NCBI GenBank assembly: GCA_029582265.1
Contig: CM055821.1
Span: forward strand, 40,123,004 to 40,187,003
Direction of reading: 5' to 3'
DNA from: Zoroaster sp. YZ-2022
Taxonomy: Eukaryota; Echinodermata; Asteroidea; Forcipulatida; Zoroasteridae
Length of the DNA stretch: 64,000 nt
In this document: in pieces, positions 23,152-63,419 of the stretch
Numbering within the stretch: the first letter of the stretch is position 1
How the letters are laid out: each line of letters begins with the position of its first letter
Made by a program: the position numbers and the translations under genes
The notes under the pieces: generated by a model
Told to the model about the DNA's origin: nothing
Databases searched by the model: none
Seen by the model: only the letters and a program-made list of their open reading frames with translations

Positions 23152-23162
23152 TGTACATTCAA

Positions 23163-35136: not shown

Positions 35137-37202
35137 AGTGTTTATCAAAGTGACAATTATCTTTTCTCTAAAAAATACCAATAAGATATATAGACCTTTT
35201 TAAAAAATTACTGAATCTGTCCCTGATTACATTTAGTAGAAAAACAAAAGAGGGTGTGGCAATGTTATTGTACTGAGAACAAAAAAGGGTGGTTGCTGCA
35301 GTGCAGCTGTTATACATGCAACCTATATTAATTTTGAAATTTGTCGATAACCATGCTCTCAATTTTGTTTTTCTTTTTCCATGAAAAGCCGGGTAGCCTT
35401 AGGAACATCTCGCTGCAATGACACCACCAACAAAAAGAATATCGGTAGGTCATAAGACCTTTATCAAGGTAAAGCTATCTTGTTTATTTAATTATTATTA
35501 TACATGTCTAGTAATGAAACCAAGGATGCCTCAAAAGTACACTAAAGCACTGTAGCTTGGAAGCCCGAGGAATACTGTAAACAAGGGCACTTACAATGTG
35601 AACCAGAAACACCAGGGTAAACCCCGACTCTTCCACGATAAGTGTTCTTCGACAGGGCCAAACAAAGGCTGGAAGGAAAAATAGTCTGGTCCATTAAATA
35701 TATGCTTTGTGATTCATCACTAAAATCATACTTGAGCACAGGCGTGTAGCCAAGGAGCCCTCTTTGTACTTTTCTACATTTGTTTTACAGGATAAGAACT
35801 ATGAAGGAACTGAAACAAGTACATATATACCAAAAGACCAGAGGTAGACCTTAAGAGCTTAGAGGTAATGATAAGTTAAAAGTTAAAAGTTAAAACTGGG
35901 TGTATAGCTGATTGGGGGGGGGGGGGGCGCTCGGATGTTATAATCAGAATTGTCAGTACCAAGTTTGTGAAGTATTATGGCTCATGATACAGATGTGAGT
36001 TTTTCTCTTCAACTTTCTTTTTTTAATTTGTTTGTTTGTTTTTTTTGTTTTTGGGGGGAGATAGGGAACCTTTGGACAAATGTTACCCCCCCCCCCCGAA
36101 TCTGCCCTTGGGTTTTATGCCGATTGTGATATAAATCTACCATTGAAATAGTTTACACTAAAAAGAGTAAAATAATTTCCATTCTTGAATTTAAGAAAGA
36201 GTACTCTTTCCTCAATTTCACATTAGAATGAATACACAATTTGGGAATTGCATTTTCTCTGTGTTCTCGTTAATGACATAACAAATAAGCTCAAACTTTC
36301 CTTTTTTATTTTTTTATAGGGAATGTACAGCAATGTTGCTAATTCTAGAAATCTGCTACTATGAGTATGCTTACTCTCTTTAAGTAAAGATAGCCATTAA
36401 AACCCTCCTACACATGGAGGCCCTCCCAACCACTAAATTCTGTTCTTTAGCAACCTTCAGTACATACATGTACATGTACAAGCCTGCTGTCCTTTCCAAG
36501 TAATCTTACAAAATCAACTGTGTGCCACCCAAGGGCACTGTAAATGTTTGAACATATTAGTATGGCCTACAGTGTATCAATGGGAGACCACTTTACCCTG
36601 TAATCTCAGTGGTGTGACAGTGCACAGAAGGGTAACCATATGAGGCCACTGGCAACAGCTAATGGCTTGGAGTGGCCTGAATGGGTTGTTTCAAAAATTG
36701 CACTGATTGTAGGAGGGTTAAACAACCAACCTGTGAGAGTTTCACCTTATTATGTTATGTCGCAAATAAGAACATATTCGGATTTGTTGTTTACCATCCT
36801 AACCTAGAATTTTGGAAAGAGTACACTTTTGAACAGGCAATAATTTTTCTTTTCCTCAAACATGACAGCACCTCAAAACAAAAAGAATGATACCACCATC
36901 AGCTTCAGTCACTTTTAGTTATCAATTCTATTCCTTATCTTTAACCAAGACATTAACCAACCAATGTCTTTGTTAAATTAACTTATCTTGTTTGACCATA
37001 AACATTAGTTGGACACACATTATCTACAAATGATTGTTTATGTACTAATCTGTTTTGGTAGTTTTTTCCTTCTGAAAAGGACACAATGATGTGAATATCT
37101 ATCATGCAGCACATTGGTAAAAATGATTTGCTACAGTGAAAGGACATTTCACTGCCACCCATGGGCGCTGCCATGTTTACCCATAATCCTTTCTGTGCTA
37201 GT
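35137..37202. other. Intergenic, no gene established
   Basis: Contains G-runs (35910) and a C-run followed by gaatctgccctt (36090), likely remnants of other MITEs. A short ATG frame at 35436 ends at a GTAGGT site but has no partner exon. Confidence 0.3.
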
Positions 37203-37300
37203 ACAATTTGTTTCATTTTGTTTCAATTTGTTTCAAATTGTTTCAAATTGTTTCATACTGTTACAGCTTGGTTCAGTTTGTTGTAACTATTCTTAACTTG
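37203..37300. repeat. Imperfect (CAATTTGTTT)n run
   Basis: Degenerate tandem caatttgtttcaaattgttt units similar to 24369-24470. Confidence 0.8.
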
Positions 37301-39446: not shown

Positions 39447-39461
39447 GTGCTAGCTTCGGCT

Positions 39462-39503
<42 letters not shown>

Positions 39504-39553
39504 GGCCCCTGCGCAAGGATGACACGCAAAATCGTGAAGCGTTCCATATTTTT
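39447..39553 (+). ncRNA. RNU6: U6 spliceosomal snRNA
   Basis: A 107-nt gene starting GTGCTAGCTTCGGC, with the 5' stem-loop, the ATACAGAGAAGATTAGC region containing the invariant ACAGAGA box and AGC triad, the internal stem-loop region and the GTTCCATATT end, followed by a T6 Pol III terminator. It differs from human U6 at only about three positions. With PSE, TATA, intact core and terminator all present it is very likely functional. It acts in the nucleus in the catalytic core of the spliceosome. Confidence 0.97.
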
Positions 39554-39654: not shown

Positions 39655-41962
39655 AAACTTTTTTTTTTTTTTTCAAACATAACTAGGGGTCTTGAAGTTT
39701 CCTGGTGACTTCTCAGAGGCATGGCCAGGGGTTCAGAGAGAGGTCAGGGTCAACAGGACCCCCCCTCTTGGACGTCAACCAGGAGCAGATTGAGGATTTT
39801 GTGTTAGTGGTCGTATGTGTTGAAGTAACATTTTGACAGATTTGATCAGAATTACCTCATGCAATAATGTTGTGCAAAACCATTAAGGAAGGGAGTTCAG
39901 GGCCCACTTAAGGGCCCTGGAAGGTCTGGGTGGGGTCGGGATGCCCTGTGGTGCATTCTGTTTATGTCTTCTTACCACTTTTGATGGTGTTTTAGGGTGA
40001 ATTATTTGAAAGTACACATGATGTGTTGAAGTAACATTTTGACTTATTTGATAGGAATTACTTAATGCAATCATGTTGTGAAAAGCCATTAAGGCAGGTA
40101 GTTCATGGCCCACTTAAGGGCCCTGGAAGCTCCGGGTGGGGTCTGGATTACCTTCTGTTTACTATATTCTAAGCACTTTTGGTGGTGTTTTGGGGTGCAA
40201 CATTTGGAAGTTCATATACTTGAAACTATATACTTTTTTTCTTTTTTTCAAACATAACTAGGGGTCTTGAAGTTTCCTGGTGACTTCTCAGAGGCATGGC
40301 CAGGGGTTCAGAGAGAGGTCAGGGTCAACAGGACCCCCCTCTTGGACGTCAACCAGGAGCAGATTGAGGATTTTGTGTTAGTGGTCGTATGTGTTGAAGT
40401 AACATTTTGACAGATTTGATCAGAATTACCTCATGCAATAATGTTGTGCAAAACCATTAAGGAAGGGAGTTCAGGGCCCACTTAAGGGCCCTGGAAGGTC
40501 TGGGTGGGGTCGGGATGCCCTGTGGTGTATTCTGTTTATGTCTTCTTACCACTTTTGATGGTGTTTTAGGGTGAATTATTTGAAAGTACACATGATGTGT
40601 TGAAGTAACATTTTGACTTATTTGATAGGAATTACTTAATGCAATCATGTTGTGAAAAGCCATTAAGGCAGGTAGTTCATGGCCCACTTAAGGGCCCTGG
40701 AAGCTCCGGGTGGGGTCTGGATTACCTTCTGTTTACTATATTCTAAGCACTTTTGGTGGTGTTTTGGGGTGCAACATTTGGAAGTTCATATACTTGAAAC
40801 TATATACTTTTTTTTTTTTTTTTCAAACATAACTAGGGGTCTTGAAGTTTCCTGGTGACTTCTCAGAGGCATGGCCAGGGGTTCAGAGAGAGGTCAGGGT
40901 CAACAGGACCCCCCCTCTTGGACGTCAACCAGGAGCAGATTGAGGATTTTGTGTTAGTGGTCGTATGTGTTGAAGTAACATTTTGACAGATTTGATCAGA
41001 ATTACCTCATGCAATAATGTTGTGCAAAACCATTAAGGAAGGGAGTTCAGGGCCCACTTAAGGGCCCTGGAAGCTCTGGGGTGGGATCTGGATGCCCTGT
41101 GGTGCATTCTGTTTACTAACTTCTTACAACTTTTGATGGTGTTTTTGGGTGAAATATTTGAAAGTTATATAATGTGTTGAAGTAACATTTTGAGTGATTT
41201 GATGGGAATTTCTTAATGCAATCATGTTGTGCAAAACCATTAAGGAAGGGAGTTCAGGGCCCACTTAAGTGCCCTGGAAGCTCCGGGTGGGGTCTGGATT
41301 ACCTTCTGTTTACTATATTCTAAGCACTTTTGGTGGTGTTTTGGGGTGCAACATTTGGAAGTTCATATACTTGAAACTATATACTTTTTTTTTCTTTCTC
41401 AAACATAACTAGGGGTCTTGAAGTTTCCTGGTGACTTCTCAGAGGCATGGCCAGGGGTTCAGAGAGAGGTCAGGGTCAACAGGACCCCCCTCTTGGACGT
41501 CAACCAGGAGCAGATTGAGGATTTTGTGTTAGTGGTCGTATGTGTTGAAGTAACATTTTGACAGATTTGATCAGAATTACCTCATGCAATAATGTTGTGC
41601 AAAACCATTAAGGAAGGGAGTTCAGGGCCCACTTAAGGGCCCTGGAAGCTCTGGGGTGGGATGTGGATGCCCTGTGGTGCATTCTGTTTACTAACTTCTT
41701 ACAACTTTTGATGGTGTTTTTGGGTGAAATATTTGAAAGTTATATAATGTGTTGAAGTAACATTTTGAGTGATTTGATGGGAATTTCTTAATGCAATCAT
41801 GTTGTGCAAAACCATTAAGGAAGGGAGTTCAGGGCCCACTTAAGGGCCCTGGAAGCTCCGGGTGGGGTCTGGATTACCTTCTGTTTACTATATTCTAAGC
41901 ACTTTTGGTGGTGTTTTGGGGTGCAACATTTGGAAGTTCATATACTTGAAACTATATACTTC
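39655..41962. repeat. Four tandem ~575-bp units
   Basis: aactaggggtcttgaagttt begins at 39681, 40256, 40831 and 41407 (steps 575, 575, 576). Each unit contains two diverged ~200-bp half-units beginning gttgaagtaacattttga, each with the inverted gggcccacttaagggccc. Units 1 and 2 share 'ggtcgggatgccc', while units 3 and 4 share 'gtgggat(c/g)tgg' and an altered second half, giving an AABB pattern. A T-run precedes every unit. Confidence 0.95.
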
Positions 41963-42235
41963 AGTTGGCTTCAATTATTTTTAATCTTCCTTCCCCTTGA
42001 CATCAGGGGTCAGTTGATCTGCTCATTGAGTGTAACCACGTGGTCAAAATCTTTAAGTAGGGGTGCAAGTATTGGGCTTAAATATTTTAGGGGCTGCTCA
42101 GTTTAACTGAAAACAGTGAAATAACCGCATGGAATCACTCCTATTAGAAAAAGAAATATTTTGAAATAAAAATATTGATCATAAGTGTGAAGTTGATTTA
42201 GTTGAATTGGTTGGTATTTTTCTCATTTATTAGGC
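41963..42235. other. Junction between 575-bp array and DUF6729 copy
   Basis: Single-copy-looking AT-rich sequence. The part nearest 42235 may be residual intron 6 of the degenerate element. Confidence 0.4.
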
Positions 42236-42314
42236 GAGCTCATAGGTGTTGAATACTTCCGCACTAGCAACCAGGAGTTTCCCTACCTCAAACTTCCCCA
42301 CTAGCAATCAGGAG

Positions 42315-42492
42315 TAGTGGCGTGACTAGGGTCCAATTTTCAGGGGGCACTAGGGATTGCACCACCTTTTCTAGGGGGCATGTCAATACTTGAATCCTGC
42401 AGTCTCAAATAGGGACTTTTTTTCCTTCAAAATTCTGAATGGGGGACACCCAGGGGCGCGGAACCCCCCGTGCCCCCATAGTTACGCAACTG
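42315..42492. mobile_element. hAT-type MITE inside the exon-7 relic
   Basis: 178 bp, beginning TAGTGGCGTGACTAGGG and ending CCCCATAGTTACGCAACTG (imperfect inverted termini), flanked by perfect 8-bp atcaggag duplications (42307-42314 and 42493-42500). Confidence 0.9.
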
Positions 42493-42872
42493 ATCAGGAG
42501 TTTCCCTACCTCAAACTTCCCCACTAGCAATCAGGAGTTTCCCTACCTCAAACTGACCAGGAAGTCAATACCGACATTGATTAGGGCATTGAAGAAGACG
42601 TCTGGTTTGTAGAGGAAATGGCAGCCACTCCAATTTGACTATTCCCCTGCCATCTCAAGACTATGTCGAGGATGACAGTGAAGATGAGGTATACAATTAA
42701 TGTCAAAGCTTTCTTCATTGACTTAAAATGAGTGGTTGACCAAAGAGTTGCTTTTATTTACAGTTTTGTAATAATGCGACAATAAAATCTATTTATAGAT
42801 TTCATCATTGTACCATCCTGATTTAATTTAAAACTGCCAAGAGGTACTGACCCCAACCCTCTCCTTGCATAT

Positions 42873-42876
42873 TTAA
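42873..42876. other. Empty TTAA target site
   Basis: This TTAA in the intron-7 relic corresponds exactly to the point where the foldback MITE is inserted in the homologous intron at 17856-18078. Confidence 0.9.
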
Positions 42877-43618
42877 TGACCTTTGACTTCACATGGTTCA
42901 CGTAAAGGCACAAAATGGTTTGTTTTACTGCTAGGTGGAATCCCACTTTAATAATGAGTTTGATGTATATAATTATACTTACAGGAGAGTGATCACAGTG
43001 ACGATGAGGCTGTTGGTGGCAAAGTAGATCTGCTGGCAGAAGCTCTCATTCAACTTAAGGGTTTGTCAGTACAGTCAGCAATGTTCAGGCAGCAACAATA
43101 ACGATAAATAGCCACTGGTCCACAAGCCCCAACATTATGTGTCTAAACGTGGGCGCTTCAGTCACAAATACAAAAATATCCATGTAGACTATGAAGAGGT
43201 ACAATTACATTTTCTTTCTCAAGTTCATTGAAATTTGTAATTACATGGTTTAACTACGGGGAGGCAGTCCCTCACTCATTTCAAAGATTGTTTGTGGTGT
43301 GCTATTCAATTAAAAAAAAATTAATTCAACCAAATAATGCCAATTACAGGAAGATAGTCCACATCAAGGAGACAGAATTAATACACCAATTTCCGACCAA
43401 TTGAATGAATCTCAAGGCTCAATTTTTACTTTCATTTTGTTTCAGGTGTTTCTTATCTGAAGGGACACCATCCCACTCACCTTCGAAAAGCTGACTTGTA
43501 CAGGAAATCTGTATAAAATTGTGCAACACAATATACAGCACTGAAAACATCCGCACAAGGCTATTGACTCCTCCACATGGAAGCTTATAATAGCATCCTA
43601 GAATAAAATAAGAGGACA

Positions 43619-46600
43619 CCTACACAATAGCCAGGCCCTCTTCGACAACAGAGTTCAAAGCTCTATTTCCCATCAATGAGACTACCTTACTAAAGTGGTA
43701 ACTATTTCACACAATAGTCAGGTCCTCTTGGACAACACAGAGTTCAAAGCTCTATTTACCACCAACGAGACTACCTCACTCAAGTGGTAAATATTTCAGT
43801 ACACTATACACAATAGCCAGGCCCTCTTGGACAATCAACACAGAGTTCAAAGCTATATTTTCCACCAACGAGACTACCTCACTCAAGTGGTAAATATTTC
43901 AGTACACAGAACACAATAGCCGGCCCGGCCCTCTTGGACAACACAGAGTTCAAAGCTATATTTCCCACCAACGAGACTGCTTCACTCAAGTGGTAAATAT
44001 TTCAGTACACAGCACAATAGCCGGCCAGGCCCTCTTGGAAAACACAGAGTTCAAAGCTCTATTTCCCACCAACGAGACTACCTCACTCAAGTGGTAAATA
44101 TTTCACTACACAATACACAATAGCCAGGCCCTCTTGGACAATCAACACAGAGTTCAAAGCTCTATTTCCCACCAATGAGACTACCTCACTGAAGTGGTAA
44201 ATATTTCAATACACAATACACAACAGCCAGGCCCTCTTGGACAACACCCACCAATGAGACTACCTTATTTAAGTGGTAAATATTTCAGTACACAATACAC
44301 ATTAGCCAGGCCCTCTTGGACAATCAACACAGAGTTCAAAGCTCTATTTCCCACCAACGAAACTACCTCACTGAAGTGGTAAATATTTCAGTACACAATA
44401 CACATTAGCCAGGCCCTCTTGGACAATCAACACAGAGTTCAAAGCTCTATTTCCCACCAACGAAACTACCTCACTGATGTTGTAAATATTTCAGTACACA
44501 ATACAGAATAGCCAGGCCCTCTTGGACAATCAACACCAACGAGACTACCTCACTCAAGTGGTAAATATTTCAGTACACAGAACACAATAGCCGGCCAGGC
44601 CCTCTTGGACAACACAGACTTCAAAGCTCTATTTCCCACCAACGAGACTACCTCACTCAAGTGGTAAATATTTCAGTACACAATACACAATAGCCAGGCC
44701 GTCTTGGACAACACCCACCAACGAGACTACCTCACTCAAGTGGTAAATATTTCAATACACAGAACACAATAGCCGGCCCGGCCCTCTTGGACAACACAGA
44801 GTTCAAAGCTCTATTTCCCACCAACGAGACTACCTCACTCAAGTGGTAAATATTTCAGTACACAGAACACAATAGCCGGACACGCCCTCTTGGACAACAC
44901 AGAGTTCAAAGCTCTATTTCCCACCAACGAGACTACCTCACTCAAGTGGTAAATATTTCAGTACACAGAACACAATAGCCGGACAGGCCCTCTTGGACAA
45001 CACAGAGTTCAAAGCTCTATTTCCCACCAATGAGACTACCTCACTCAAGTGGTAAATAATTCAATACACAATACACAATAGCCAGGCCCTCTTGGACAAC
45101 ATAGAGTTCAAGACTCTATTTCCCACCAATGAGACTACCTCACTCAAGTGGTAAATATTTCAATACACAATACACAATAGCCAGGCACTCTTGGACGACA
45201 CAGAGTTCAAAGCTCTATTTCCCACCAATGAGACTAATTCACTGAAGTGGTAAATATTTCAATACACAATACACAATAGCCAGGCCCTCTTGGACAACAC
45301 AGAGTTCAAAGCTCTATTTACCATCAATGAGACTACCTTACTAAAGTGGTAAATATTTCAATACACAATACACAATAGCCAGGCCCTCTTGGACAACACA
45401 GAGTTCAAAGCTCTGTTTCCCACCAATGAGACTACCTCACTGAAGTGGTAAATATTTCAGTACACAATACACAGTAGCCAGGCCCTCTTGGACAACACAG
45501 AGTTCAAAGCTCTATTTCACATCAATGAGACTACCTTACTAAAGTGGTAAATATTTCAATACACAATACACAATAGCCAGGCCCTCTTGGACAACACAGA
45601 GTTCAAAGCTCTATTTCCCACCAACGAGACTACCTCACTCAAGTGGTAAATATTTCAGTACACAGAACACAATAGCCGGCCCGGCCCTCTTGGACAACAC
45701 AGAGTTCAAAGCTCTATTTCCCACCAACGAGACTACCTCACTCAAGTGGTAAATATTTCAGTACACAGAACACAATAGCCGGACAGGCCCTCTTGGACAA
45801 CACAGAGTTCAAAGCTCTATTTCCCACCAACGAGACTACCTCACTCAAGTGGTAAATATTTCAGTACACAGAACACAATAGCCGGACAGGCCCTCTTGGA
45901 CAACACAGAGTTCAAAGCTCTATTTCCCACCAACGAGACTACCTCACTCATAAGTGGTAAATATTTCAGTACACAGAACACAATAGCCGGACATGCCCTC
46001 TTGGACAACACAGAGTTCAAAGCTCTATTTCCCACCAACGAGACTACCTCACTCAAGTGGTAAATATTTCAGTACACAGAACACAATAGCCGGCCAGGCC
46101 TTCTTGGACAACACAGAGTTCAAAGCTCTATTTCCCACCAATGAGACTACCTCACTCAAGTGGTAAATAATTCAATACACAATACACAATAGCCAGGCCC
46201 TCTTGGACAACACAGAGTTCAAAGCTCTATTTCCCATCAATGAGACTACCTTACTAAAGTGGTAAATATTTCAATACACAATACACAATACACAATAGCC
46301 AGGCCCTCTTGGACAACACAGAGTTTAAATCTCTATTTCCCACCAATGAGACTACCTCACTGAAGTGGTAAATATTTCAGTACACAATACACAATAGCCA
46401 GGCCCTCTTGGACAACACAGAGTTCAATGCTCTATTTCCCACCAACGAGACTACCTCACTCAAGTGGTAAATATTTCAGTACCCAGAACACAATAGCCGG
46501 CCAGGCCCTCTTGGACAACACAGAGTTCAAAGCTGTATTTCCCATCAACGAGACTAACTCATTCAAGTGGTAAATATTTCAGTACCCAGAACACAATAGC

Positions 46601-49600
46601 CGGCCAGGCCCTCTTGGACAACACAGAGTTCAAAGCTGTATTTCCCATCAACGAGACTAACTCACTCAAGTGGTAAATATTTCAGTACACAGAACACAAT
46701 AGCCGGCCAGGCCCTCTTGGACAACACAGAGTTCAAAGCTCTATTTCCCACCAATGAGACTACTTCACTGAAGTGGTAAATATTTCAGTACACAATACAC
46801 AATAGCCAGGCCCACTTGGACAACACAGAGTTCAATGCTCTATTTCCCACCAATGAGACTACCTCACTGAAGTGGTAAATATTTCAGTACACAATACACA
46901 GTAGCCAGGCCCTTTTGGACAATCAATACAGAGTTCAAATTTCTATTTCCCACCAACGAGACTACCTCACTCAAGTGGTAAATATTTCAGTATACAGAAC
47001 ACAATAGCCGGCCAGGCCCTCTTGGACAACACAGAGTTCAAAGCTGTATTTCCCATCAACGAGACTAACTCACTCAAATGGTAAAGTACAGTACACAGAA
47101 CAGAACAACACAGAGTTCACAGCCAGGCCCTGGTGACAACACAGGTTCAAGCTCTATTTCCATACCAACAGTACACAGACTAGCCGGCCAGGCCCTCTTG
47201 GACCTTCCTCAAGTGGTAAATATTTCATACACAGAACACAATAGCCGCCAGGCCCTCTTGGACAACACAGAGTTCAAAGCTATATTTCCACCAACGAGAC
47301 TACCTCACTCAAGTGGTAACCAGTACACAGAACACAATAGCCGTGAGCCCTCTTGGACAACACAGAGTTCAAAGCTCTATTTCAGACTACCTTCACTCAA
47401 GTGGTAAATATTTCAGTACACAGAACACAATAGCCAGCCAGGCCTCTTGGACAACACAGAGTTCAAAGCTCTATTTCCTGAGACTACCTCACTCAAGTGG
47501 TAAATATTTCAGTACACAGAACACAATAGCCGGCCAGGCCCTCTTGGACAACACAGAGTTCAAAGCTCTATTTCCCACCATCGAGACTACCTCACTCAAG
47601 TGGTAAATATTTCAGTACACAGAACACAATAGCCGGCCAGGCCCTCTTGGACAACACAGAGTTCAAAGCTCTATTTCCCACCAACGAGACTACCTCACTC
47701 AAGTGGTAAATATTTCAGTACACAGAACACAATACGCTGCCAGGCCCTCTTGGACAACACAGAGTTCAAAGCTCTATTTCCCAACGAGACTACCTCACTC
47801 AAGTGGTAAATATTTCAGTACACAGAACACAATAGCCCAGGCCCTCTTGGACAACACAGAGTTCAAAGCTCTATTTCCACCAACGAGACTACCTCACTCA
47901 AGTGGTAAATATTTCAGTACACAGAACACAATAGCAGGCCAGGCCCTCTTGGACAACACAGGTTCAAAGCTCTATTTCCCACCAACGAGACTACCTCACT
48001 CAAGTGGTAAATATTTCCAGTACACATACACAATAGCCAGGCCCTCTTGGACAACACAGGTTCAAAGCTCTATTTCCCACCAACGAGACTACCTCACTCA
48101 AGTGGTAATATTTCAGTACACAGAACACAATAGCCGGCCAGGCCCTCTTGGACAACACAGAGTTCAAAGCTCTATTTCCCACCAACGAGACTACCTCACT
48201 CAAGTGGTAAATATTTCAGTACACAGAACACAATAGCCGGCCAGGCCCTCTTGGACAACACAGAGTTCAAAGCTCTTTCACCAACGAGACTACCTCACTC
48301 AAGTGGTAAATATTTCAGTACACAGAACACAATAGCCAGGACAACACAGAGTTCAAAGCTCTGAGACTACCTCACTCAAGTGGTGTTTCAGTACACACAC
48401 AATATCTTGGACAACACAGAGTTCAAGCTCTATTTCCCACCAACGAGACTACCTCACTCAAGTGGTAAATATTTCAGTACACAGAACACAATAGCCAGGC
48501 CCTCTTGGACAACACAGAGTTCAAAGCTCTATTTCCCACCAACGAGACCACCTCACTCAAGTGGTAAATATTTCAGTACACAGAACACAATAGCCAGGCC
48601 CTCTTGGACAACACAGAGTTCAAAGCTCTATTTCCCACCAACGAGACTACCTCACTCAAGTGGTAAATATTTCAGTACACAGAACACAATAGCCGGCCAG
48701 GCCCTCTTGGACAACACAGAGTTCAAAGCTCTATTTCCCACCAACGAGACTACCTCACTCAAGTGGTAAATATTTCAGTACACAGAACACAATAGCCGGC
48801 CAGGCCCTCTTGGACAACACAGAGTTCAAGCTCTATTTCCACCAACGAGACTACCTCACTCAAGTGGTAAATATTTCAGTACACAGAACACAATAGCCAG
48901 CCAGGCCTCTTGGACAACACAGAGTTCAAAGCTCTGTTTCCATCAACGAGACTACCTCAGTGGTAAATATTTCAATACAGAACACAATAGCCAGGCCCTC
49001 TTGGACAACACAGAGTTCAAAGCTCTATTTCCCACAACGGACTACCTGTAAAGTGGTAAATATTTCAATACACAATACACAATAGCCAGGCCTCTTGGAC
49101 AACACAGAGTTCAAGCTCTATTTTCCACCAACGAGACTACCTCACTCAAGTGGTAAATTTCAGTACACAGAACACAATAGCCAGGCCTCTTGACAACACA
49201 GAGTTCAAAGCTCTATTTCCCAAACGAGACTACCTCACTCAGTGGTAAATATTTTACAGAACACAATAGTCGGCCAGGCCTCTTGGACAACACAGAGTTC
49301 AAAGCTCTATTTCCACAGAGACTACCTCACTCAAGTGGTAAATATTTCAGTACACAGAACACAATAGCCGGCCAGGCCCTCTTGGACAACACAGAGTTCA
49401 AAGCTCTATTTCCCACCTTGAGGACTACCTCACTCACTGAAGTGGTAAATATTTCAGTACACAGAACACATAGCCAGGCCTCTCTTGGACAACACAGAGT
49501 TCAAAGCTCTATTTCACGGAGACTACCTCACTCAAGTGGTAAACATTTCAGTGCACACAGAACACAATAGCCAGCTAGGCCCTCTTGGACAACACAGAGT

Positions 49601-52600
49601 TCAAAGCATTTCCAGACACTCACTCAGTGGTAAATATTTCAGCACAGAACAAGTAGCCAGGCCTCTTGGACAACACAGAGTTCAAGCTCTATTTCCAACG
49701 AGACTACCTCACTCAAGTGTAAATATTTCAGTACACAGAACACAATAGCCGGCCAGGCCTCTCTTGGACAACACAGAGTTCAAGCTCTATTCCATCAATG
49801 AGGACTACTCTTACTCAAGTGGTAATATTTCAGTACACAGAACACAATAGCCAGGCCTTGGACAACTTACAGGTTCAAAGCTCTATTTCCCACCAACAGA
49901 TTACTTTACTAAAGTGGTAAATATTTCAGTACACAGAACACAATAGCTGGCCAGGCCTCTTGGACAACACAGGTTCAAAGCTCTATTTCATCAATGAGAC
50001 TACCTTACTAAAGTGGTAAATATTTCAATACAGTACACGTACACAGAATATCCAGGCCCTCTTGGACAATCAAACCTCACCAAGTGGTGAATATTTCAGC
50101 ACACAATTTCAATATGACAATACACAATAGCCAGCAGGCCGTCTTCACCAAGTTGTAAATAGTTCACGTACACAATAATAAGTAGCTTCGGACAATCAAC
50201 ACAGAGTTCAAAGCTCTATTTTCCCAATGAGACTACCCTCACTAAAGTGGTAAATATTTCCACAACAGAACACATGCATACAAACAATAAGCCAGGCCTC
50301 TTATGGGACAACACAGAGTTCAAAGCTCTATTTCCCAGGCTCTGGACAACACAGAGTTCAAAGCTCACCAACGAGACTACCTCACTCAAGTGGTAAATAT
50401 TTCAGTACACAATACACAATAGCCAGGCCCTCTTGGACAATCAACACAGGTTCAAAGCTCTATTTCCCAACCCAATGAGACACCTTACTTCACTCATGGT
50501 AAATATTTTCAGTCGCCCTACACTTGAACACAATAGATCGGCCAGGCCCCTGACAACAACACAGAGTTCAAAGCCTCTATTGTCCACCAACGAGACTAAA
50601 CCCTCTTACTAAGTGGTAAATATTTATTAGCACACCATGAGTACTACAATAGTCGGCTCCAGGCCCTCTTGGACAACCATCGAGAGTTCACACCCACTCA
50701 GTGGTAAAATATGTTCAGTACACAGAACACATATGGCAGCCGCCAGGCTCCTCTTGGACAACACAGAGTCTAAAGCCTCTATTTTCCACCAACGAGGACT
50801 ACTACATCACTCAAGTGGTAAAATATGTTCCACAGAACACAATAGCCGACCTTGGGCCCTCTTGACAACACAGAGTTCAAAGCTCTATTTCCCACCATCG
50901 ACTACCACCATGGTAAATATTTCACACACAACACAATAGCCGGCCAGGCCTCTCTTGGACAACTATTCACTCAAGTGGTAAAATATTTCAGCAAATAAAT
51001 ACACAATGACAACTGACCACAGGGCCCTCTTGGATAACCTGACAGGCCTATAGTTCACCTCTATTTCCCACCAACAGCAGGTTATCTCCTCTCACCAAGT
51101 GGTAAATGATTTCAGTACACATAACACAATAGGCCGAGCCCTCCTTGGACAATCAACACAGAGTCTCAAAGCTCTATTTCCCACCAACGAGACTACCTCC
51201 TCAAGTGGTAATTTAATATGTTCAGTACACACAATAATGAGCCACAATGGCAACACAGGTTCAAAAGCTCTCTGATTTCCCACCAAGAGACTACCTCACT
51301 CCAAGTGGTAAAACATTTCAAAGCTCCAATACACAGCTGCCCTCTGGTAAATATTAGTCATTACAATCAGGTTTCCCAACCAGGCCCTCTTGGACTACCA
51401 ACACAGGGTTTCAGTACACAGAAGTCACATTTCCAGTACACAGAACACAATAATCGGCCAACCCTCTTTGGACAACACAGGTTCAGCTCTATTTCCCACC
51501 AACGAGACTACCTTCACTCAAGTGGTAAATATTTCAGTACACAGATACACAATAGCCGCCAGGCCCTCTTGGACAACACAGGTTCAAAGCTCTATTTCCC
51601 ACCAACGAGACTACCTCACTCAAGTGGTAAATATTTCAGTACACAGAACACAATAGCCGGCCAGGCCCTCTTGGACAACACAGAGTTCAAAGCTCTATTT
51701 CCCACCAACGAGACTACCTCACTCAAGTGGTAAATATTTCAGTACACAGAACACAATAGCCGGCCAGGCCCTCTTGGACAACACAGAGTTCAAAGCTCTA
51801 TTTCCCACCAACGAGACTACTTCACTCAAGTGGTAAATATTTCAGTACACAGAACACAATAGCCGGCCAGGCCCTCTTGGACAACACAGAGTTCAAAGCT
51901 CTATTTCCCACCAACGAGACTACTTCACTCAAGTGGTAAATATTTCAGTACACAGAACACAATAGCCGGCCAGGCCCTCTTGGACAACACAGAGTTCAAA
52001 GCTCTATTTCCCACCAACGAGACTACCTCACTCAAGTGGTAAATATTTCAGTACACAGAACACAATAGCCGGCCAGGCCCTCTTGGACAACACAGAGTTC
52101 AAAGCTCTATTTCCCACCATCGAGACTACCTCACTCAAGTGGTAAATATTTCAGTACACAGAACACAATAGCCAGGCCCTCTTGGACAACACAGAGTTCA
52201 AGCTCTATTTCCCACCAACGAGACTACCTCACTCAAGTGGTAAATATTTCAGACACAGAACACAATAGCCGGCCAGGCCCTCTTGGACAACACAGAGTTC
52301 AAAGCTCTGTTTCCCACCAAGACTACCTCACTCAAGTGGTAAATATTTCAGTACACAATAGCCAGGCCAGGCCTCTTGGACAATCAACACAGAGTTCAAA
52401 GCTCTATTTCCCACCAACGAGACTACCTCACTCAAGTGGTAAAAATTTCAGTACGCAGTAGACTATAGGCGGCCAGGCCGTCATGGACAACACAGAGTAC
52501 TCTATTTCCCACCAGGATGCCTCACTCATAGTACACAGAACACAATAGCCGGCCAGGCCCTCTTGGACAACACAGAGTTCAAAGCTCTGTTTTCCACCAA

Positions 52601-55600
52601 CGAGACTACCTCACTCAAGTGGTAAATATTTCAGTACACAGAACACAATAGCCGGCCAGGCCCTCTTGGACAACACAGAGTTCAAAGCTCTCTTTCCCAC
52701 CAACGAGACTACCTCACTCAAGTGGTAAATATTTCAGTACACAATACACAATAGCCAGGCCCTCTTGGACAACACCCACCAACGAGACTACCTCACTCAA
52801 GTGGTGAATATTTCAGTACACAGAACACAATAGCCGGCCAGGTCCACTTGGACAACACAGAGTTCAAAGCTCTATTTCCCATCAATGAGACTACTTCAGT
52901 AAAGTGGTAAATATTTCAATACACAATACACAATATCCAGGCCCTCTTGGACAATCAACACAGAGTTGAAAGCTCTATTTCCCACCAACGAGACTACCTC
53001 ACTCAAGTGGTAAATATTTCAGTACACAGAACACAATAGCCGGCCAGGCCCTCTTGGACAACACAGAGTTCAAAGCTGTATTTCCCATCAACGAGACTAA
53101 CTCACTCAAGTGGTAAATATTTAAGTACACAGAACACAATAGCCGGCGAGGCCCTCTTGGACAACACAGAGTTCAAGGCTCTATTTCCCACCAACGAGAC
53201 TACCTCACTCAAGTGGTAAATATTTCAGTACACAGAACACAATAGCCGGCCAGGCCCTCTTGGACAACACAGAGTTCAAAGCTGTATTTCCCACCAACGA
53301 GACTACCTCACTCAAGTGGTAAATATTTCAGTACAGAGAACACAATAGCCGGCCAGGCCCTCTTGGACAACACAGAGTTCAAAGCTCTATTTCCCACCAA
53401 CGAGACTACCTCACTCAAGTGGTAAACATTTCAGTGCACAGAACACAATAGCCAGCTAGGCCCTCTTGGACAACACAGAGTTCAAAGCTCTGTTTTCCAC
53501 CAACGAGTCTACCTCACTCAAGTGGTAAATATTTCAGTACACAATACACAATAGCCAGGCCCTCTTGGACAATCAACACAGAGTTCAAAGCTCTATTTTT
53601 CCCACCAACGAGACTACCTCACTCAAGTGGTGAATATTTCAGTACACAGAACACAATAGCCGGCCAGGCCCTCTTGGACAACACAGAGTTCAAAGCTCTA
53701 TTTCCCACCAACGAGACTACCTCACTCAAGTGGTAAACATTTCAGTACACAGAACACAATAGCCGGCCAGGCCCTCTTGGACAACACAGAGTTCAAAGCT
53801 CTGTTTTCCACCAACGAGACTACCTCACTCAAGTGGTAAATATTTCAGTACACAATACACAATAGCCAGGCCCTCTTGGACAACACCCACCAACGAGACT
53901 ACCTCACTCAAGTGGTGAATATTTCAGTACACAGAACACAATAGCCGGCCAGGTCCTCTTGGACAACACAGAGTTCAAAGCTCTATTTCCCACCAACAAG
54001 ACTATCTCACGCAAGTGGTAAATATTTCAGTACACAGAACACAATAGCCGGCCAGGTCCTCTTGGACAACACAGAGTTCAAAGCTCTGTTTCCCATCAAT
54101 GAGACTACCTTACTAAAGTGGTAAATATTTCAATACACAATACACAATAGCCAGGCCCTCTTGGACAACACAGAGTTCAAAGCTCTATTTCCCAACAATG
54201 AGACTACCTTACTAAAGTAGTAAATATATCAATACACAATACGCCCTCTTGGACAACACAGTGTTCAAAGCTCTATTTCACATCAATGAGACTACCTTAC
54301 TAAAGTGGTAAATATTTCAATATACAATACACAATAGCCAGGCCGTCTTGGACAACACAAAGTTCAAAGCTCTATTTCCCATCAATGAGACTACCTTACT
54401 AAAGTGGTAAATATTTCAATACACAGTACACAATATCCAGGCCCTCTTGGACAATCAACACAGAGTTGAAAGCTCTATTTCCCACCAATGAGACTACCTC
54501 ACTAAAGTGGTAAATATTTCAATGCACAATACACAATAGCCAGGCCCTCTTGGACAACACAGAGTTCAAAGCTCTATTTCCCACCAACGAGACTACCTCA
54601 CTCAAGTGGTAAATATTTCAGTACACAATACACAATAGCCAGGCCCTCTTGGACAATCAACACAGAGTTCAAAGCTCTATTTCCCACCAACGAGACTACC
54701 TCACTGAAGTTGTAAATATTTCAGTACACAATACAGAATAGCCAGGCCCTCTTGGACAATCAACACCAACGAGACTACCTCACTCAAGTGGTAAATATTT
54801 CAGTACACAGAACACAATAGCCGGCCAGGCCCTCTTGGACAACACAGAGTTCAAACCTCTATTTCCCACCAACGAGACTATCTCACTCAAGTGGTAAATA
54901 TTTCAGTACACAGAACACAATAGCCGGCCAGGCCCTCTTGGACAACACAGAGTTCAAAGCTCTATTTCCCACCAACGAGACTACCTCACTCAAGTGGTAA
55001 ATAGTTCAGTACACAATACACAATAGCCAGGCCCTCTTGGACAATCAACACAGAGTTCAAAGCTCTATTTTTCCCACGAACGAGACTACCTCACTCAAGT
55101 GGTAAATATTTCAGTACACAGAACACAATAGCCGGCCAGGCCCTCTTGGACAACACAGAGTTCAAAGCTCTATTTCCCACCAACGAGACTACCTCACTCA
55201 AGTGGTAAATATTTCAGTACACAGAACACAATAGCCGGCCCGGCCCTCTTGGACAATACAGAGTTCAAAGCTCTATTTCCCACCAACGAGACTACCTCAC
55301 TCAAGTGGTAAATATTTCAGTACACAGAACACAATAGCCGGACAGGCCCTCTTGGACAACACAGAGTTCAAAGCTCTATTTCCCACCAACGAGACTACCT
55401 CACTCAAGTGGTAAATATTTCAGTACACAGAACACAATAGCCGGACAGGCCCACTTGGACAACACAGAGTTCAAAGCTCTATTTCCCACCAATGAGACTA
55501 CCTCACTCAAGAGGTAAATAATTCAATACACAATACACAATAGCCAGGCCCTCTTGGACAACATAGAGTTCAAGGCTCTATTTCCCACCAATGAGACTAC

Positions 55601-55879
55601 CTCACTCAAGTGGTAAATATTTCAATACACAATACACAATAGCCAGGCACTCTTGGACAACACAGAATTCAAAGCTCTATTTCCCACCAATGAGACTACT
55701 TCACTGAAGTGGTAAATATTTAAATACACAATACACAATAGTCAGGCCCTCTTGGACAACACAGAGTTCAAAGCTCTATTTCCCACCAATGAGACTACCT
55801 CACTGAAGTGGTAAATATTTCAGTACACAATACACAGTAGCCAGGCCATCTTGGACAACACAGAGTTCAAAGCTCTATT
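43619..55879 (+). repeat. Satellite array of ~100-bp monomers derived from a transposase exon
   Basis: About 12.3 kb, roughly 120 head-to-tail monomers. A typical monomer is cacaatagccaggccctctt + ggacaacacagagttcaaag + ctctatttcccaccaatgag + actacctcactgaagtggta + aatatttcagtacaca. Regular stretches (for example 51770-52080) have a 103-bp period with a 'gaacacaatagccggccagg' linker. Others with an 'atacacaatagccagg' linker are a few bases shorter, and some lack the ~20-bp agagttcaaagctctatttc block. Except for the linker the monomer aligns to the 3' end of exon 9 of the DUF6729 gene (revcomp 16953-17035), including the splice donor. Monomers from about 47080 to 51500 have many short indels. 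Apparent frames across the array are by-products of repetition. Confidence 0.97.
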
Positions 55880-56816
55880 TGTAGCGGACGCTCTAGAAAT
55901 CCTCTTGGTTTATTTTGAGTCATTTTTCCCCAACTTAACTTACCTGCATTTTCTAAGAGGCTTTAGGATGGTAACTAAATATTCCAGATATCATACCTTC
56001 AATGTGGCGTAGTTTAGAAAGGATACGGTTGCCTATAAACAGTGTATTTCCTGATGCATGAACAATGCATGCTAGAGCCATCCTTTGTTTACATGTGGAG
56101 GCCGCCATGTTTGTTATGGTCACATGATCAAAGTTTTAGAATTAGCTAAAATATTCTTATGTCCTAGATATTGATTCTTTTTTGAAGGTAACATTTTTGC
56201 CGGATTGCAATTAAGTTTCTGTAAATTTCTATGGTATTTCTGAGGAAATTTGTGTAACTTATAATTTTCCCATAATGCATTGCTTCTTCAAAATGGCCTA
56301 CTTTTCCGACAATGTGACAATTCCAGTGCTGTTGTTGATGATTCTTAATCCATAATTTCTGTGATCATCCCAAGATTTAAGCTCACCCTCTACAGGCCCA
56401 CGAGGTAATGACTGTCTCTTTTTAGTAATGGTTATAATTTTGGTCTTGCATTCATATGATTATTGTGAGAAAATAAGGGTTTTTAGAACGAATTTTAGTG
56501 TCATTTATACATACTGCATATCACACTGCCCACGTAAATGTATGTGTTTATTGCTCTAGGTTAAATGAAGTTTTGGAACTTTTCATTGTGAAATTATCAG
56601 TTGTTTCCCATATTGTTGAGATCTATACTCATTACTATTGTTGGTATTTTCCTGTTTGATAGATCTTACGATGTCTATATAGAGATTTCATGAAGTCAAG
56701 ATTTATGGTCAAAGATGTGCATCTTGAAACAAGAATAAAGACTCAAAGTCAAGGCATCTGTAAGAACGTGTCCGCCAAATCGTTTAATTGAGTATTGGTA
56801 GTCGGGTGCAGCTACA
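55880..56816 (+). repeat. 5' LTR of the BEL/Pao element
   Basis: 937 bp, TGTAGC...GCTACA, with 6-bp inverted ends starting TG and ending CA. An AATAAA lies near 56732, 85 bp before the end. The first 377 bp match the visible 3' LTR with a single-base indel difference (ttttcccc against tttccc). A primer-binding site after 56816 was not recognised. Confidence 0.88.
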
Positions 56817-57676
56817 GTAAGATCTCACTGCCCTCTGAATGCAGAGTTACCTTGAGTTAAGCGTGGAAACTAAACCAAAGTTGTCGTCATCCCTGGCCCA
56901 TGATGAAGAAAACGAGGCTAGGCAAACTTCGAGCAGCACCGTAGCCATGCAGCAATCCAGGTTCATGTAGCACCAAAGATTCAGGCACAACAGCATCGTG
57001 TGGAACATCTGAAGCACGGATCAGCACAGTGACAGAGAAAGACCAGGAGACGAGAGAGCTGATCAACATCGGGAGAATAAAACTTCAGGAGGACCACAAA
57101 TGGTGCAAAACTGCACACAGAACTAGACAACAAACAGTCGGTCGTTGACGGTCAAATAACAAACGTTGTTCCATGTACTGTACTTTATTGAGAGCAACAA
57201 CGTGTAGAGTGTTCTGTCAAACTGTTCAGAAAACCAGAGTGTAAAAACCATCCCCTGGATACATTTGCAAGGTTGTTGTGTGATAATTAAGATCAATTTT
57301 TACACTTTACTACATGGTGAAAACATCAATTTCTGTTCACTATGCAGTATCGTTGATTAATTGATTTTAACTCATTGCTTGATGTGTATTGCTTGATGAT
57401 TAATTTAGCTCATTGAATATGGTACATGTGTATTTTCTTTGATTAATTATTTACCATACATATTTTGCTGATTCTTTGCCCATTGCATACTGTACATTTA
57501 CGGTTCAATTTTTGTGTAATTTACAGCACAGTGCACCTTCATTTGAGGTTATTACAATAAATTTAAAGGTGCACTCGTGTGTCATTCAACACAAATATTT
57601 GTAATTGTTGATGAAGGTAATTTTAAGAAAGTGGTGTGAAATTATTTTGCATTGATATTGTTCCTAAATTAATGCG
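56817..57676. other. Retrotransposon leader
   Basis: Untranslated leader between the LTR and gag. A minus-strand frame at 56887-57069 is not supported by any domain. Confidence 0.6.
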
Positions 57677-59412
57677 ATGGCTAGTAAGGAAATAAATGAA
57701 CAGGTGAATCAGCTCGAAGAAGAGATGGAAAAATACACGACAACCCTCGAGACAGTAGATGATCCTACAGAAAGAGAAAGGATTTTAGAAGCTATTTTTC
57801 AGAATCAAGAAAAAATCCTTCAACTGAGTAAAGCAGCCGAGAGCGAATCTGAAACCCGAAAGAGCAGCAGGACGCGGCAACTAACAGCCAAGATGACAGA
57901 ATTGCAAGCCTCAGAGAAGGCTAAAAGGGAAAGGAGATTGAAGAAAGACTTTGATCACAAATACGAATCTTGGAAGGATTGCTGCAAGAATGTAAGGAAA
58001 GTGCTGAAGGGCTTCTGTACAGAGCATACTTTGAACCAAATATATTCGTCATTGCACAGTGCCGAGATGAACTGATTGAAGTATATGAAGCCTGCCGAAC
58101 TTAGCCCACCTGAACAAGAAATGCGGCGACGGGTTGACACTTGTGCAGCAATAGCCAAACAACTATTGAGGGTGGTTGCAGACAAGGAAGATACAGATGC
58201 AGATGTTTCAAGTCAATTGAGAAAAGTACTACACGCAGACAACAATGCATCAATCTTCTCTTCGGCACCATCCAGCCGAGCATCGTCCCACCTTTCAGAC
58301 AGTCTATCGGTGAGGCGAGTAAAGGCTGCTGCCGAATTAGCAGCTCAAGAGGCTGAAATAAAGATTCTGGAGGTCAAAGAGAAAAAGCAAGCAGAGCTCG
58401 ATGAACTGCAACGACAACAGGAGAAGAAAAGGAGAGAAATAGAGCGACTAGAAATAGAGAAAGAGGTGGACAAGGCCCGTGCACAATTCGAAGTGTATGA
58501 CCGGGAGTGCAGGGGCTTTAATGACAGTAGTGATATAGGTCACTCTCTTGACGGAGCACAGAAGACACTACCAAAGTCAGCCCAAGTATCCGAGGATGGT
58601 CAAATAGCAGTCCTGGTCCGCAGTCTCCAGGACTGCATGTCACTACACAAATTGCCTCCACCAGAACCAAGTGTGTTTACGGGTGAGGCCATCCGCTATG
58701 TGGAATGGAAAGCCAGCTTTAAGACGCTCATCGAGTCGAAGGCCATCTCAACAGCGGAGAGAGTGTATTATCTCAAGAGATACTTGGGCGGTGAAGCACT
58801 GAAAGCAGTACAAGGCTTCTTTTATAATACATCAATTGAGTCATACGAGGGAGCATGGCAGCTGCTTGAGGAGCGCTACGGCCATCCCTTCAAAATACAA
58901 AAGGCCTTCAGAGATAAGTTATCAAGCTGGCAGAAGATAAGCCCCAAAGATGCGACCGGCCTACAACAGTTTGCAGATTTCCTGAAGGCGTGTAATGATG
59001 CCATACCTCATGTTCCTGCGCTAAAAATACTGGATGACTGCGAGGAAAACCGACGTCTACTGTCGAAGTTACCAGATTGGGCGGTAGCTCGCTGGAATCG
59101 GCAAGTCTCATATAGGCTGGACGACACAGGCAACTATCCTGGTTTTGAAGAGTTTGTGAAGTTTGTGCGGAAAGAAGCCCGTGTTGCATGTAATCCTATT
59201 TCATCGTTGTATGCACTAAAAGGAACAGAGACCTCGGGGACAGAAGAGACTAAAACAGGCGAAAGAAGAAAAGCCAATCGCAGCAGAGGTACGGCTCACA
59301 ACTGCATCAAGCGAAGTTGAGAAGTCCAACGAAAGCCAGTTGCCCTCAAACCAGCATTCCAGCCAAAACCTTGTCTGTATTGCAAGTCAACGGATCACCA
59401 CATAAGTAGATG
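57677..59412 (+). pseudogene. gag: BEL/Pao gag region (DUF1759), with in-frame stops
   Basis: One frame carries an N-terminal coiled-coil segment (57677-58072), then EKKRREIERLEIEKE-type helices, a DUF1759 domain (FTGEAIRYVEWKASFKTLIE near 58675, YLKRYLGGEAL) and a CCHC knuckle (CLYCKSTDHHISRC, 59372-59413). TGA codons at 58073 and 59318 interrupt it. Around the first stop the ~45 intervening bases give a better family-like reading (DELIEVYEAC) in another frame, which points to a pair of compensating indels. A one-base loss near 59412 shifts the frame into the next segment. Confidence 0.85.
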
Positions 59413-60759
59413 CCCGGCTTCGCAAGCAAGTCACTGGATGATAGAAAGAAGTTTGTCCAGGAAAACAGACTGTGCTTTGGTTGCCTCAAGAAGGGACATC
59501 TCTCAAAGGATTGTCGACGAAGACATACCTGTGACAAATGTAAAGGAAGACACCCTACGATGCTCCATTATGATACAACAGAGAGTAAGTCCTCCAACCA
59601 AAGGGAAGTGAAGTCACCAAAGAGAGAGGAAATAGTAACGGCGGTGTCTTGTGGTGTCCATCTGGAAAATGCCAGGGGGACCTCAATGATAGTCCCAGTA
59701 TGGGTGTCGTCAGCAGAAACACCTTCGAAGGAAGTTCTCACTTATGCTCTGTTAGACACTCAAAGCGACAGCACGTTTATATTGGACAACACCGCCAGGT
59801 CTATTTCAGCCCACTGTGAGCCAGTGCGATTGAAGCTCTCCACTATGACTTCTGCATCTTCCATGATAGATTGTAGCGCAGTCACAAACATACTAGTCAG
59901 AGGGATGTCTTCGTCTAACAGAATACAAATTCCACGATCGTACACAAGGGATTTCATCCCGGTGGACAAGTCCCACATCCCCACTGCAGACACTGCTAGA
60001 AGATGGTCCCACCTCTACAGCATAATCCATGAGATTGCACCTCTACAGAACTGTGGGGTGGGAATGCTGATCGGATACAATTGCTCACAAGCCTTGGCAC
60101 CACGACAAACCATAGTTGGATCAGATGAAGAACCATATGCTGTCAAGACCGACCTTGGTTGGACCATCGTTGGATATGATGAGCAAAGTACCAACAGTCG
60201 CACTCCCAGTTTCTGCCACCGTGTCTCGGTAAAGGAGGCCCCATGCATATCGCCGTGGAACGTAATCAGCATACTAGAAGCTGATTTCTCAGAGAAACAT
60301 CATGCCGAGAAGACCATATCCCAAGAGGATATTAAGTTTATCAACCACCTAGAGACCAGCATTCATCAGACGAGCGGTGGTCACTTCAGCATGTCACTTC
60401 CCTTCAAGGATGGCAAACCCACGTTGCCGAACAACAAGAGAACAGCCGCAGTTCGTCTTAACCACCTCAACAGGAAGTTCGACACCAACCCAAAGTACCA
60501 TTCTGACTACAAGAAGTTTATGGAAGATATCATAGAGAGTGGTCATGCAGAGAAGGTTGAGAGCCAAGGAGAGGAAGGAAGGGTTTGGTACATTCCACAC
60601 CATGGAGTGTATCACCCTCAAAAACCAGGAAAAATCAGAGTGGTTTTCGATTGTTCTGCACGCCATGCTGGGACTTCGCTGAATGGTCATCTACTTACCG
60701 GACCGGACTTGATAAACAAGTTGTTTGGAGTGCTGTGTCGGTTCAGAGAACATCCATAG
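59410..60759 (+). pseudogene. pol: BEL/Pao zinc knuckle, protease and N-terminal reverse transcriptase
   Basis: Opens just after the frameshift and carries a CCHC knuckle at residues 22-35 (CFGCLKKGHLSKDC) and a further CDKCKGRHPTMLH motif. The aspartic protease motif LLDTQSDSTFI is near residue 115 (DTQ in place of DTG, as often seen in BEL elements). It then enters the reverse transcriptase (KIRVVFDCSARH, nt ~60630). It ends at 60757-60759 where the frame slips; the next frame continues with the RT palm. Confidence 0.88.
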
Positions 60760-61061
60760 CCGTCATGTGTGACATAGAGAAGATGTTCCACCAGTTTCTC
60801 GTAAATGAAGAAGACCGTGACTACTTACGGTTCCTATGGTGGGAGAATGGCAACGCAAGTAATAAGCCTCAGGAATACCGCATGAAGGTCCACCTATTTG
60901 GTGCAGCTTCATCCCCAGGGTGTGCCAACTACGGCTTGAAACACCTGGCAAATCAGCATGAGAATGAATTCCCACTGGCAGCATCGTTTATCAAGAGGAA
61001 CTTCTACGTCGATGATGGTTTGAAAAGCACCGAACCGAAGATGAAGCGAAAAGGTTGGTGA
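60745..61061 (+). pseudogene. pol: BEL/Pao reverse transcriptase palm segment
   Basis: In the shifted frame it reads MCDIEKMFHQF, then HLFGAASSPGCANYGLK, then FYVDDGL. The YVDD catalytic motif is at 61005-61016. The frame slips again near 61045. Confidence 0.88.
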
Positions 61062-61777
61062 AAGAGGCGCAAGAGGTATGTGCCAGAGGAGGGCTGCGCC
61101 TCCACAAATTCATCTCAAACAGCAGAGAAGTCATGGAGACCATTCCGGCAGCTGACCGTGCCGCTGGAGTGAAGGATGTGGATCTTGGAAGTGATGCTCT
61201 TCCAACAGAGAGGGCTCTTGGCATCCAATGGTGTGTAGAGACAGACATGTTTAACTTCCACATCCAATCCAAGGATCACTCATTGACACGTAGGGGAATC
61301 TTGTCTTCAGTTGCCTCTATATATGACCCTCTTGGGTTCCTTGCCCTTTGTTCTTATTGGCAAGGAATCCTCCAGGAAATGTGCCAAAATGGAGTGGACT
61401 GGGATGATCCACTTCCTGACAAACTACGCCCAAGGTGGGAGAAGTGGAATGATGACCTCAGTAACCTGAAAGAGATTCACATACCTCGGTGCTACGTGCC
61501 AAATGGTTTTGGAAAGGTCGTCAGCGTGGAACTTCATCATTTCTCTGACGCCAGTACACATGGGTATGGACAGTGTTCGTATCTGCGATTTATTGCAGAA
61601 GATGAGGTTCATTGCACACTAGTAGCCGGAAAAGCTAGAGTTGCTCGGTCAAGATAGTTACTATTCCTCGACTAGAGTTGACGGCTGCTGTAGTGTCAGT
61701 GCTGATGGGTCACATGATAAAAGAGGAACTGGAAAGTCACCATCGACCAGGAATTCTTCTGGACAGACTCCCAGGTC
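61055..61777 (+). pseudogene. pol: BEL/Pao RT thumb and RNase H segment
   Basis: From 61055 to 61657 one frame covers the connection region (ASIYDPLGFL) and RNase H (HHFSDASTHGYGQC). After a stop at 61655 the sequence continues in another frame (IPRLELTAAVVSVLMGH) to about 61775, where it slips again. Each slip is a one- or two-base change. Confidence 0.85.
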
Positions 61778-62534
61778 GTGCTTGGCTACATAAGCAATAA
61801 GGCTAGACGTTTTCATATATTCGTCGCCAACAGAATCCAAAAAATCTGCCAGTTCTCTGAGCCCAGTCAGTGGCACTATGTGTCAACAGAGGTGAACCCA
61901 GCTGACCATGCCTCACGAGGAGTCTTTGCCAAAGAGTTGCTTGCCTCAAACTGGTTCAGAGGTCCAGAATTCCTATGGAACAAAGATTTGGCAATAGCAG
62001 AGGAACCAGTCCGCCAACTTAATGTTGGCGATCCTGAAGTAAAGAATGTGACATCGCTCCAGACTACTGTTGTACCAAGATTACTCGAATGGGAGGATCG
62101 TCTGTCGCGATTCTCTGACTGGTCAAAGCTTTTGGGAGCTGTCGCACGCATAAGACGATTGGATCAGAAAGAGAAGGCTACTCTTACCCTCTCTACACCA
62201 CAAGAAAGACAGGAGGCAGAAACACAAATTGTGAAGTTAGTTCAAAAACAAGCCTTCCTAGAGGAAATCCAGTCATTGACAAGTTCAGGTAGAGTGATGG
62301 CAACTGCCAAAATCTTCAACTTGAATCCATTCCTGGACCGTGAGGGTGTTCTTAGAGTTGGGGGACGCCTGAGAAATGCAGAGGTTGCAGACATCATAAA
62401 GTACCCAGCCATTCTACCGAAGGGTAGCAATCTAACTAGGTTGCTCATTTCGCACTTCCACAGCAAAGTGCAACACCAAGGTCGGGGAATGACCTTTAAT
62501 GAAGTCAGAGCTAATGGGTACTGGATAATTGGAG
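61778..62534 (+). pseudogene. pol: BEL/Pao RNase H end and integrase N-terminal part
   Basis: Starts within the last RNase H motif (LGYISNKARRF), passes TEVNPADHASRG, and reaches the integrase zinc-binding region with HFHSKVQHQGRG and GYWIIGG. It stops abruptly at 62540, where the rest of the zinc-binding module should follow. Confidence 0.85.
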
Positions 62535-63419
62535 GAGCTTAAGAAGTACGGGCTGCTGATCACGTGCATGTGCTCACGTGCAGTACACATTGAGATGCTG
62601 GATGATATGACTACGGATAGCTTCATCAATGCTCTTCGGTGCTTCATTGCCATGAGAGGTCCCGTACAACTGTTGCGCTCTGACCAGGGTTCCAATTTTG
62701 TTGGAGCAAAAAATGAATTACGAGAAGCATTGAAGGAATTGGATGTGGAGAGAGCTCAAGTCTTCCTGGCAAAGCGTCAATGTCAGTTTGTAATGAATGC
62801 GCCACCGCAAGTCATGTCGGGCGTGTGGGAGCGCCAAATCAAAACAGTCAGAAGTGTTTTGTCATCCATCATTCAGCAGACCCCAGGTAGACTTGACGCT
62901 GCAACCTTGCGCACCTTCCTCTATGAGGCCATGGCCATTGTGAACAGTCGTCCACTGACGACAACCAATCTTTATGACCCTTTGAGTCCTGAGCCACTCA
63001 CACCAAACCATATTCTCACTATGAAGACAGCAGTGGCCTTACCGCCTCCTGGAAAGTTCGTCAAGGAAGATCTGTATGTAAGAAAACGCTGGAGACGGGT
63101 TCAATATCTGGCCGAACAGTTTTGGGGAAGATGGAGGAAGGAATATCTCTCTTCTCTGTCTTCAAGAGCAAAATGGAGCACTACACGAAGAAACATCAAG
63201 GTGGGAGACGTGGTGTTGGTGAAAGATGAAGATACACCACGCATGGAGTGGCCAATGGCTATTGTGACTGAAACCACTGAAGGTGAAGACCATCTGGTTA
63301 GAAGATGCAAAGTCCAGATTGGCTCCAAAAACCTAGACAAGCAGGGTAAAAGAGTCAACAAGATGTCGGTCCTGGAGCGGCCTATTCAGAAGCTTGTCCT
63401 CTTGTTGGAATCTGAGTAG
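62529..63419 (+). pseudogene. pol: BEL/Pao integrase core (lacking its first part) and DUF5641
   Basis: Reads LKKYGLLITCMCSRAVHIEM, then LLRSDQGSNFVGA (second catalytic Asp), an RPLTTTNLYDPLSPEPLTPN segment and a C-terminal DUF5641-type domain (KVGDVVLVKDEDTPRMEWPM). Compared with complete BEL integrases, the remainder of the zinc-binding module and the first catalytic Asp are absent. I estimate a deletion of roughly 60 codons at the ggagcttaag junction near 62533. Confidence 0.85.

Follow-up and report, generated by a model that had tools for sequence, protein, structure and literature searches.

The locus raises the question of how a tandem array whose unit resembles part of a gene came into being, and which of the two is older. 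We addressed this in a window of 64,000 nt (contig C6, positions 40,123,004-40,187,003), the whole stretch of DNA analysed, to whose first letter all coordinates below refer, taken from a 1.0-Gb assembly in 616 contigs. The ~99/103-bp unit of the array shows homology to a DUF6729 gene, namely to the 3′ end of one of its internal coding exons together with the first ~12 bases of the intron that follows; ~90 bases of exon end have been multiplied into ~220 tandem copies at one chromosomal place. The evidence assembled below makes it very probable that this single-locus array formed where it now lies, within a degenerate DUF6729 transposase-like gene copy, and later received a BEL/Pao insertion.

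The window contains a DUF6729 gene copy of several exons on the minus strand (15443-24461), recognised by similarity to other copies, its limits being where that similarity stops and not element ends. The located gene pieces span 16226-22053 (minus strand), and the frames at 20377-20916 and 21304-22053 match the PF20499 profile. The exon that corresponds to the array unit, with the coding piece CFLSAG...NETTLVKW, occupies 16955-17200 and is placed by splice sites and homologues: the acceptor TTTCAG/G lies at 17200, the donor TG/GTAAAT at 16955/16954 (GT at 16954-16953), and the following exon, the last one found, starts at 16703, making the parent exon next-to-last among the coding pieces located. 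A search with the C-terminal part identified eight protein homologues. The four that were fetched (P0121, P0122, P0123 and P0126, from the hagfish Myxine, the sea cucumber Apostichopus, the lancelet Branchiostoma and one JGI protein) are all continuous across the splice join, with the residues KW-Y, RW-Y, RW-F and AW-Y at that point. With acceptor, donor and next exon placed and every fetched homologue reading through the join, the exon-intron border proposed in the original prediction is supported.

The DUF6729 protein has an RNase H-like catalytic core, and D165, D234 and E422 (numbering of P0022) are nearly invariant among 36 aligned sequences; from their position, these residues would form a DDE catalytic triad. 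The gene is likely a mobile element. Two of its copies show internal deletions. A search for terminal inverted repeats gave no convincing pair, and the end of the element is obscured by ~490-bp repeats in its 3′ region. These form a near-tandem duplication at 15443-16270, the arrangement of which varies in the copies on C1 and C2. Arrays of a 10-base word (TTTCAATTTG/CAATTTGTTT) lie at 24368-24471, flanking the gene copy on its 5′ side, and at a second place in the window, 37172-37282, and also occur at the C1, C2 and C19 loci. The open-access literature searched contains no mention of DUF6729.

The tandem array begins at 43622 and runs on the plus strand to 55879, with 124 units (partial ones included), mostly of 103 or 99 bp; Tandem Repeats Finder reports periods of 99-103, with shorter variants of 79 bp, over 43622-55880. 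A 12-kb array had been proposed for 43619-55879; the array is real, although this is only its left half, as it continues at 64561 and stops only at 74082, outside the window. The right half has 96 units and a two-unit periodicity. By wrap-around alignment the whole comprises ~220 units (124 + 96); its length, in a single assembly that contains gaps and noisy stretches, is ~21.8 kb. Mean pairwise unit identity is 92.3%, calculated from the 251 units with at least 90 of 99 columns covered among 280, a number that includes the 60 units of a second, inverted copy. Indels and mismatches relative to the consensus are raised at 49603-51602 (plus strand), possibly through uncorrected read or assembly error, and mismatches are also raised, to 10.8 per unit, in the first kilobase of the right half, which lies outside the window (64560-65559).

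The two halves are separated by an LTR retrotransposon on the plus strand, which fills the window from 55880 to 64000 and runs on to 64560. Its LTRs (55880-56816 and 63624-64560) are 99.6-99.7% identical, and it is flanked by the target-site duplication CTATT (55875-55879 and 64561-64565, the second outside the window). The element carries Peptidase_A17, DUF1759, rve and DUF5641 domains, and LTRs, 5-bp target duplication, Pao peptidase and integrase core together place it in BEL/Pao. The element that splits the array is young.

The search for further arrays that the original prediction had called for was made on the assembly. A diagnostic 21-mer has 176 and 53 matches on the two strands of the genome with at most two mismatches, of which 174 and 52 (226/229) fall within this locus; the remainder are two matches on C3 and one reverse-strand match without a located place. 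Once retrieved, the two C3 matches proved unrelated to the exon. No other array of the unit was seen in the whole-genome 21-mer counts or among the seven of eight candidates scored. A classical satellite is found in high copy on several chromosomes or in centromeric or heterochromatic blocks; this array occupies one locus in the assembly, and the term "satellite" therefore fits its structure but not its abundance. Judged from its sequence, with non-coding head-to-tail units and single-copy homologues elsewhere, it is best described as a satellite-like tandem array derived from a likely transposable element.

Beyond the window, the contig at 81081-107959 (window numbering), which lies between two 500-N gaps, contains an inverted version of the locus: both flanks are the same as in the main copy, and the array between them (97653-103465) measures 5.8 kb and has 60 units. 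Aligned with the main copy, one flank shows 6 mismatches and 40 gap positions in 1,491 columns, the other 41 mismatches and 27 gap positions in 4,432. Single alignments of the inverted copy with the joined main array contained no long stretch of at least 97% identity, but 500-bp windows did show co-linearity over ~2.3 kb, at 98.4-100% per window. Three such windows over the BEL insertion point are 98.8-100% identical, and there the inverted copy lacks the element, presenting an empty site. Outside the co-linear part, unit order differs between the two arrays. The 500-N gaps flanking this contig (80581-81080 and 107960-108459) have the same size as one within the window (12801-13300), a recurrence that suggests scaffolding joins.

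The inverted copy is most simply read as the other haplotype, left unpurged and with a shorter array, which we consider rather likely; a true recent inverted duplication would be the alternative to it. This belongs to a wider reading, in which the array is real but its stated length, its noisy stretches and the inverted copy are in part artefacts, reflecting read error and the unpurged haplotype. It draws on the gap-bounded contig, the few flank differences and the partial co-linearity, and also on the stretch at 49.6-51.6 kb, where mismatches and indels are raised, and on the raised mismatches at the start of the right half. The differing unit order speaks against it, and tandem arrays commonly differ in length between alleles. 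Furthermore, the junction between exon and array is present on the main as well as on the inverted copy, and the array itself is therefore not an assembly artefact. The wider reading, too, is compatible with an origin of the array in place.

We then consider whether the array could have a role of its own. It appears to have been founded by an exon with its own splice donor, the parent still attached; with the donor and acceptor-like words that they keep, its units might, if transcribed, act as exon-like modules that trap or divert splicing, a scenario that we regard as improbable. A broader proposal is that the array is functional, either as a transcript whose splice donors act on RNA processing or as the gene of a repeat protein. 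Of the 280 units, 247 preserve GTAAAT and 170 preserve TTTCAG, and a 209-codon open frame, from stop to stop, lies within the array, all of which would favour such a role. However, the donor is not conserved beyond the rest of the unit, its window ranking 36th of 91, and TGGTAA, a stop of the exon frame if unspliced, occurs in 230/280 units. Reading frames also break because unit length varies (99, 103, 106 and 79 bp). Given the frequency of TGGTAA and the rank of the donor, the array appears to be under no coding or splicing constraint, and a functional array is very improbable.

The immediate parent of the array is a degenerate copy of the DUF6729 gene that adjoins its left edge, contiguous with it and in the same orientation (42154-43621, plus strand). 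The matching pieces are 42154-42292, 42521-42796 and 42872-43621, the last 75% identical to 17860-17030, and the upstream exon and intron sequence continues directly into unit 1. Intron sequence breaks off at TATTTCA, where the array locus goes back into the exon at CACAATAG; the first unit (43622-43708, plus strand), joined to the upstream exon, lacks the GTACACAATA-type linker of later units. The copy at 17 kb on the opposite strand, initially taken as the source, is thus a relative, which accounts for the contrast in orientation that had been remarked on. A 3′ remainder of the parent copy was not found beside the array; across a 154-kb region, such sequence occurs only in the 17-kb copy. 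The degenerate copy is interrupted at 42316-42493 by an insert, probably a SINE-like repeat, which is 83-93% identical to many places on many chromosomes (40 scored out of 1,891 initial candidates for the query as a whole). To its left, the parent copy is adjoined by a ~574-bp direct repeat block (39657-41961) with ~208-bp subrepeats, and immediately left of that block lies a U6 snRNA gene (39447-39553; Rfam, 115 bits).

The contiguity of parent and array bears on which of the two is older. Outside the array, the exon occurs at eight loci (C1 94.369; C2 49.127, 49.295, 49.306 and 49.319; C19 4.2169 and 4.2255; and C6 at 17 kb in the window), which fall into three sequence groups; in the C2 49.295 copy, the upstream stretch reads as N. 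At all eight, the exon is present once and is followed by the same intron after GTAAATATTCCAA, and the exon is kept as coding sequence in proteins of Myxine, Apostichopus and Branchiostoma. These two observations resolve the polarity. By these comparisons the exon predates the array, which appears to have grown in a ninth, degenerate gene copy. The reverse order, in which a repeat came first and was later captured into the gene as an exon, could appeal to the presence of gene and array in one window and to the fact that exons can originate from repeats. It is contradicted by the single exon with its conserved intron, by the coding conservation in other animals and by the left border of the array, where upstream exon sequence and its intron are found, and we hold it to be very improbable.

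The homology on which this argument stands is well separated from background. The unit consensus aligns over 90-93 columns both to the minus-strand exon end (17028-16943) and to exon copies at four more genomic places, and the shared words quoted in the original prediction are found in the units, with AATGAG/AACGAG variation. The chance that the similarity is accidental or due to low complexity is negligible, as the five alignments score 86, 95, 96, 86 and 91, far above the best of 1,000 dinucleotide-preserving shuffles of the unit scored against the window exon copy (35; mean 19, SD 2.5), and as the gene copy upstream is contiguous with the array. The middle of the unit (EFKALF) is common to the unit and the adjoining parent copy and absent from all eight other exon copies (0/8), and the two may therefore have exchanged sequence after the array had started.

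Together, these observations are consistent with the following course of events. The array would have started with a local duplication that joined the first intron bases back to the interior of the exon. The two sites involved would be a CACAA-type word close to where the exon ends and a similar intronic word, linked by illegitimate recombination or by a slip at this short homology. The frequent unit types carry a linker of ~10 bases, such as GTACACAATA or GTACACAGAA, which the first unit lacks. The linker resembles GTACTCAAAT in the intron, although the intron sequence does not fully explain it, and this likeness of a few bases would fit a slip between short similar intron and exon words. Growth to ~220 copies may then have proceeded by replication slippage and unequal exchange. 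The BEL/Pao retrotransposon entered the array later.

Many satellites retain no trace of their birth. Here, one locus preserves the parent exon and its junction with the array, along with a second copy of different length and a retrotransposon that can be dated, and single-copy relatives are also present, which together make it a useful small model of how a tandem array starts and grows, the general process being already accepted. The original prediction had held a satellite built from an internal coding exon with its exon-intron border to be unusual. This stands in part. In the available text of a review, satellites are described as arising from gag or pol domains and from the central parts of DNA transposons (PMC12628747), and a centromeric repeat of 250 bp from wheat and rye is reported, in extracts of a second source, to be similar to a gag gene (PMC3648361), so that units from internal, even coding, sequence of transposable elements are known, as here. 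A unit of exon plus donor did not appear in the extracts of the papers cited here, and in these descriptions, as far as they extend, the exon-intron border is absent, whereas this locus displays it explicitly, with the parent copy still joined to the array. Among the open-access papers listed, reviews and cases derived from transposable elements were found, and no earlier exon-derived satellite identical to this one was met. Close parallels are CRM1TR and CRM4TR of maize, according to the same extracts tandem arrays from a single element, dated by inserted retrotransposons (PMC3648361). Like the present array, they occupy one or two loci, derive from one segment of a transposable element and contain heterologous retrotransposons that date them, and illegitimate recombination was proposed for their initiation. 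They stem from LTR-UTR segments, are pericentromeric and, for CRM4TR, have units of ~1.4 kb (PMC3648361, in part); here the unit is ~100 bp and comprises an internal coding exon with its splice donor from a DNA-transposon-like gene. The CapA satellite of Platyrrhini, for which an origin in an intron of NOS1AP has been suggested (cited in PMC8210747, in the portion available), likewise represents single-copy genic sequence amplified to an array in one lineage, from the intron of a host gene rather than, as here, from a coding exon of a transposase-like gene. Tandem arrays derived from transposable elements are thus already known, and this locus is a well-resolved and unusually legible further case.
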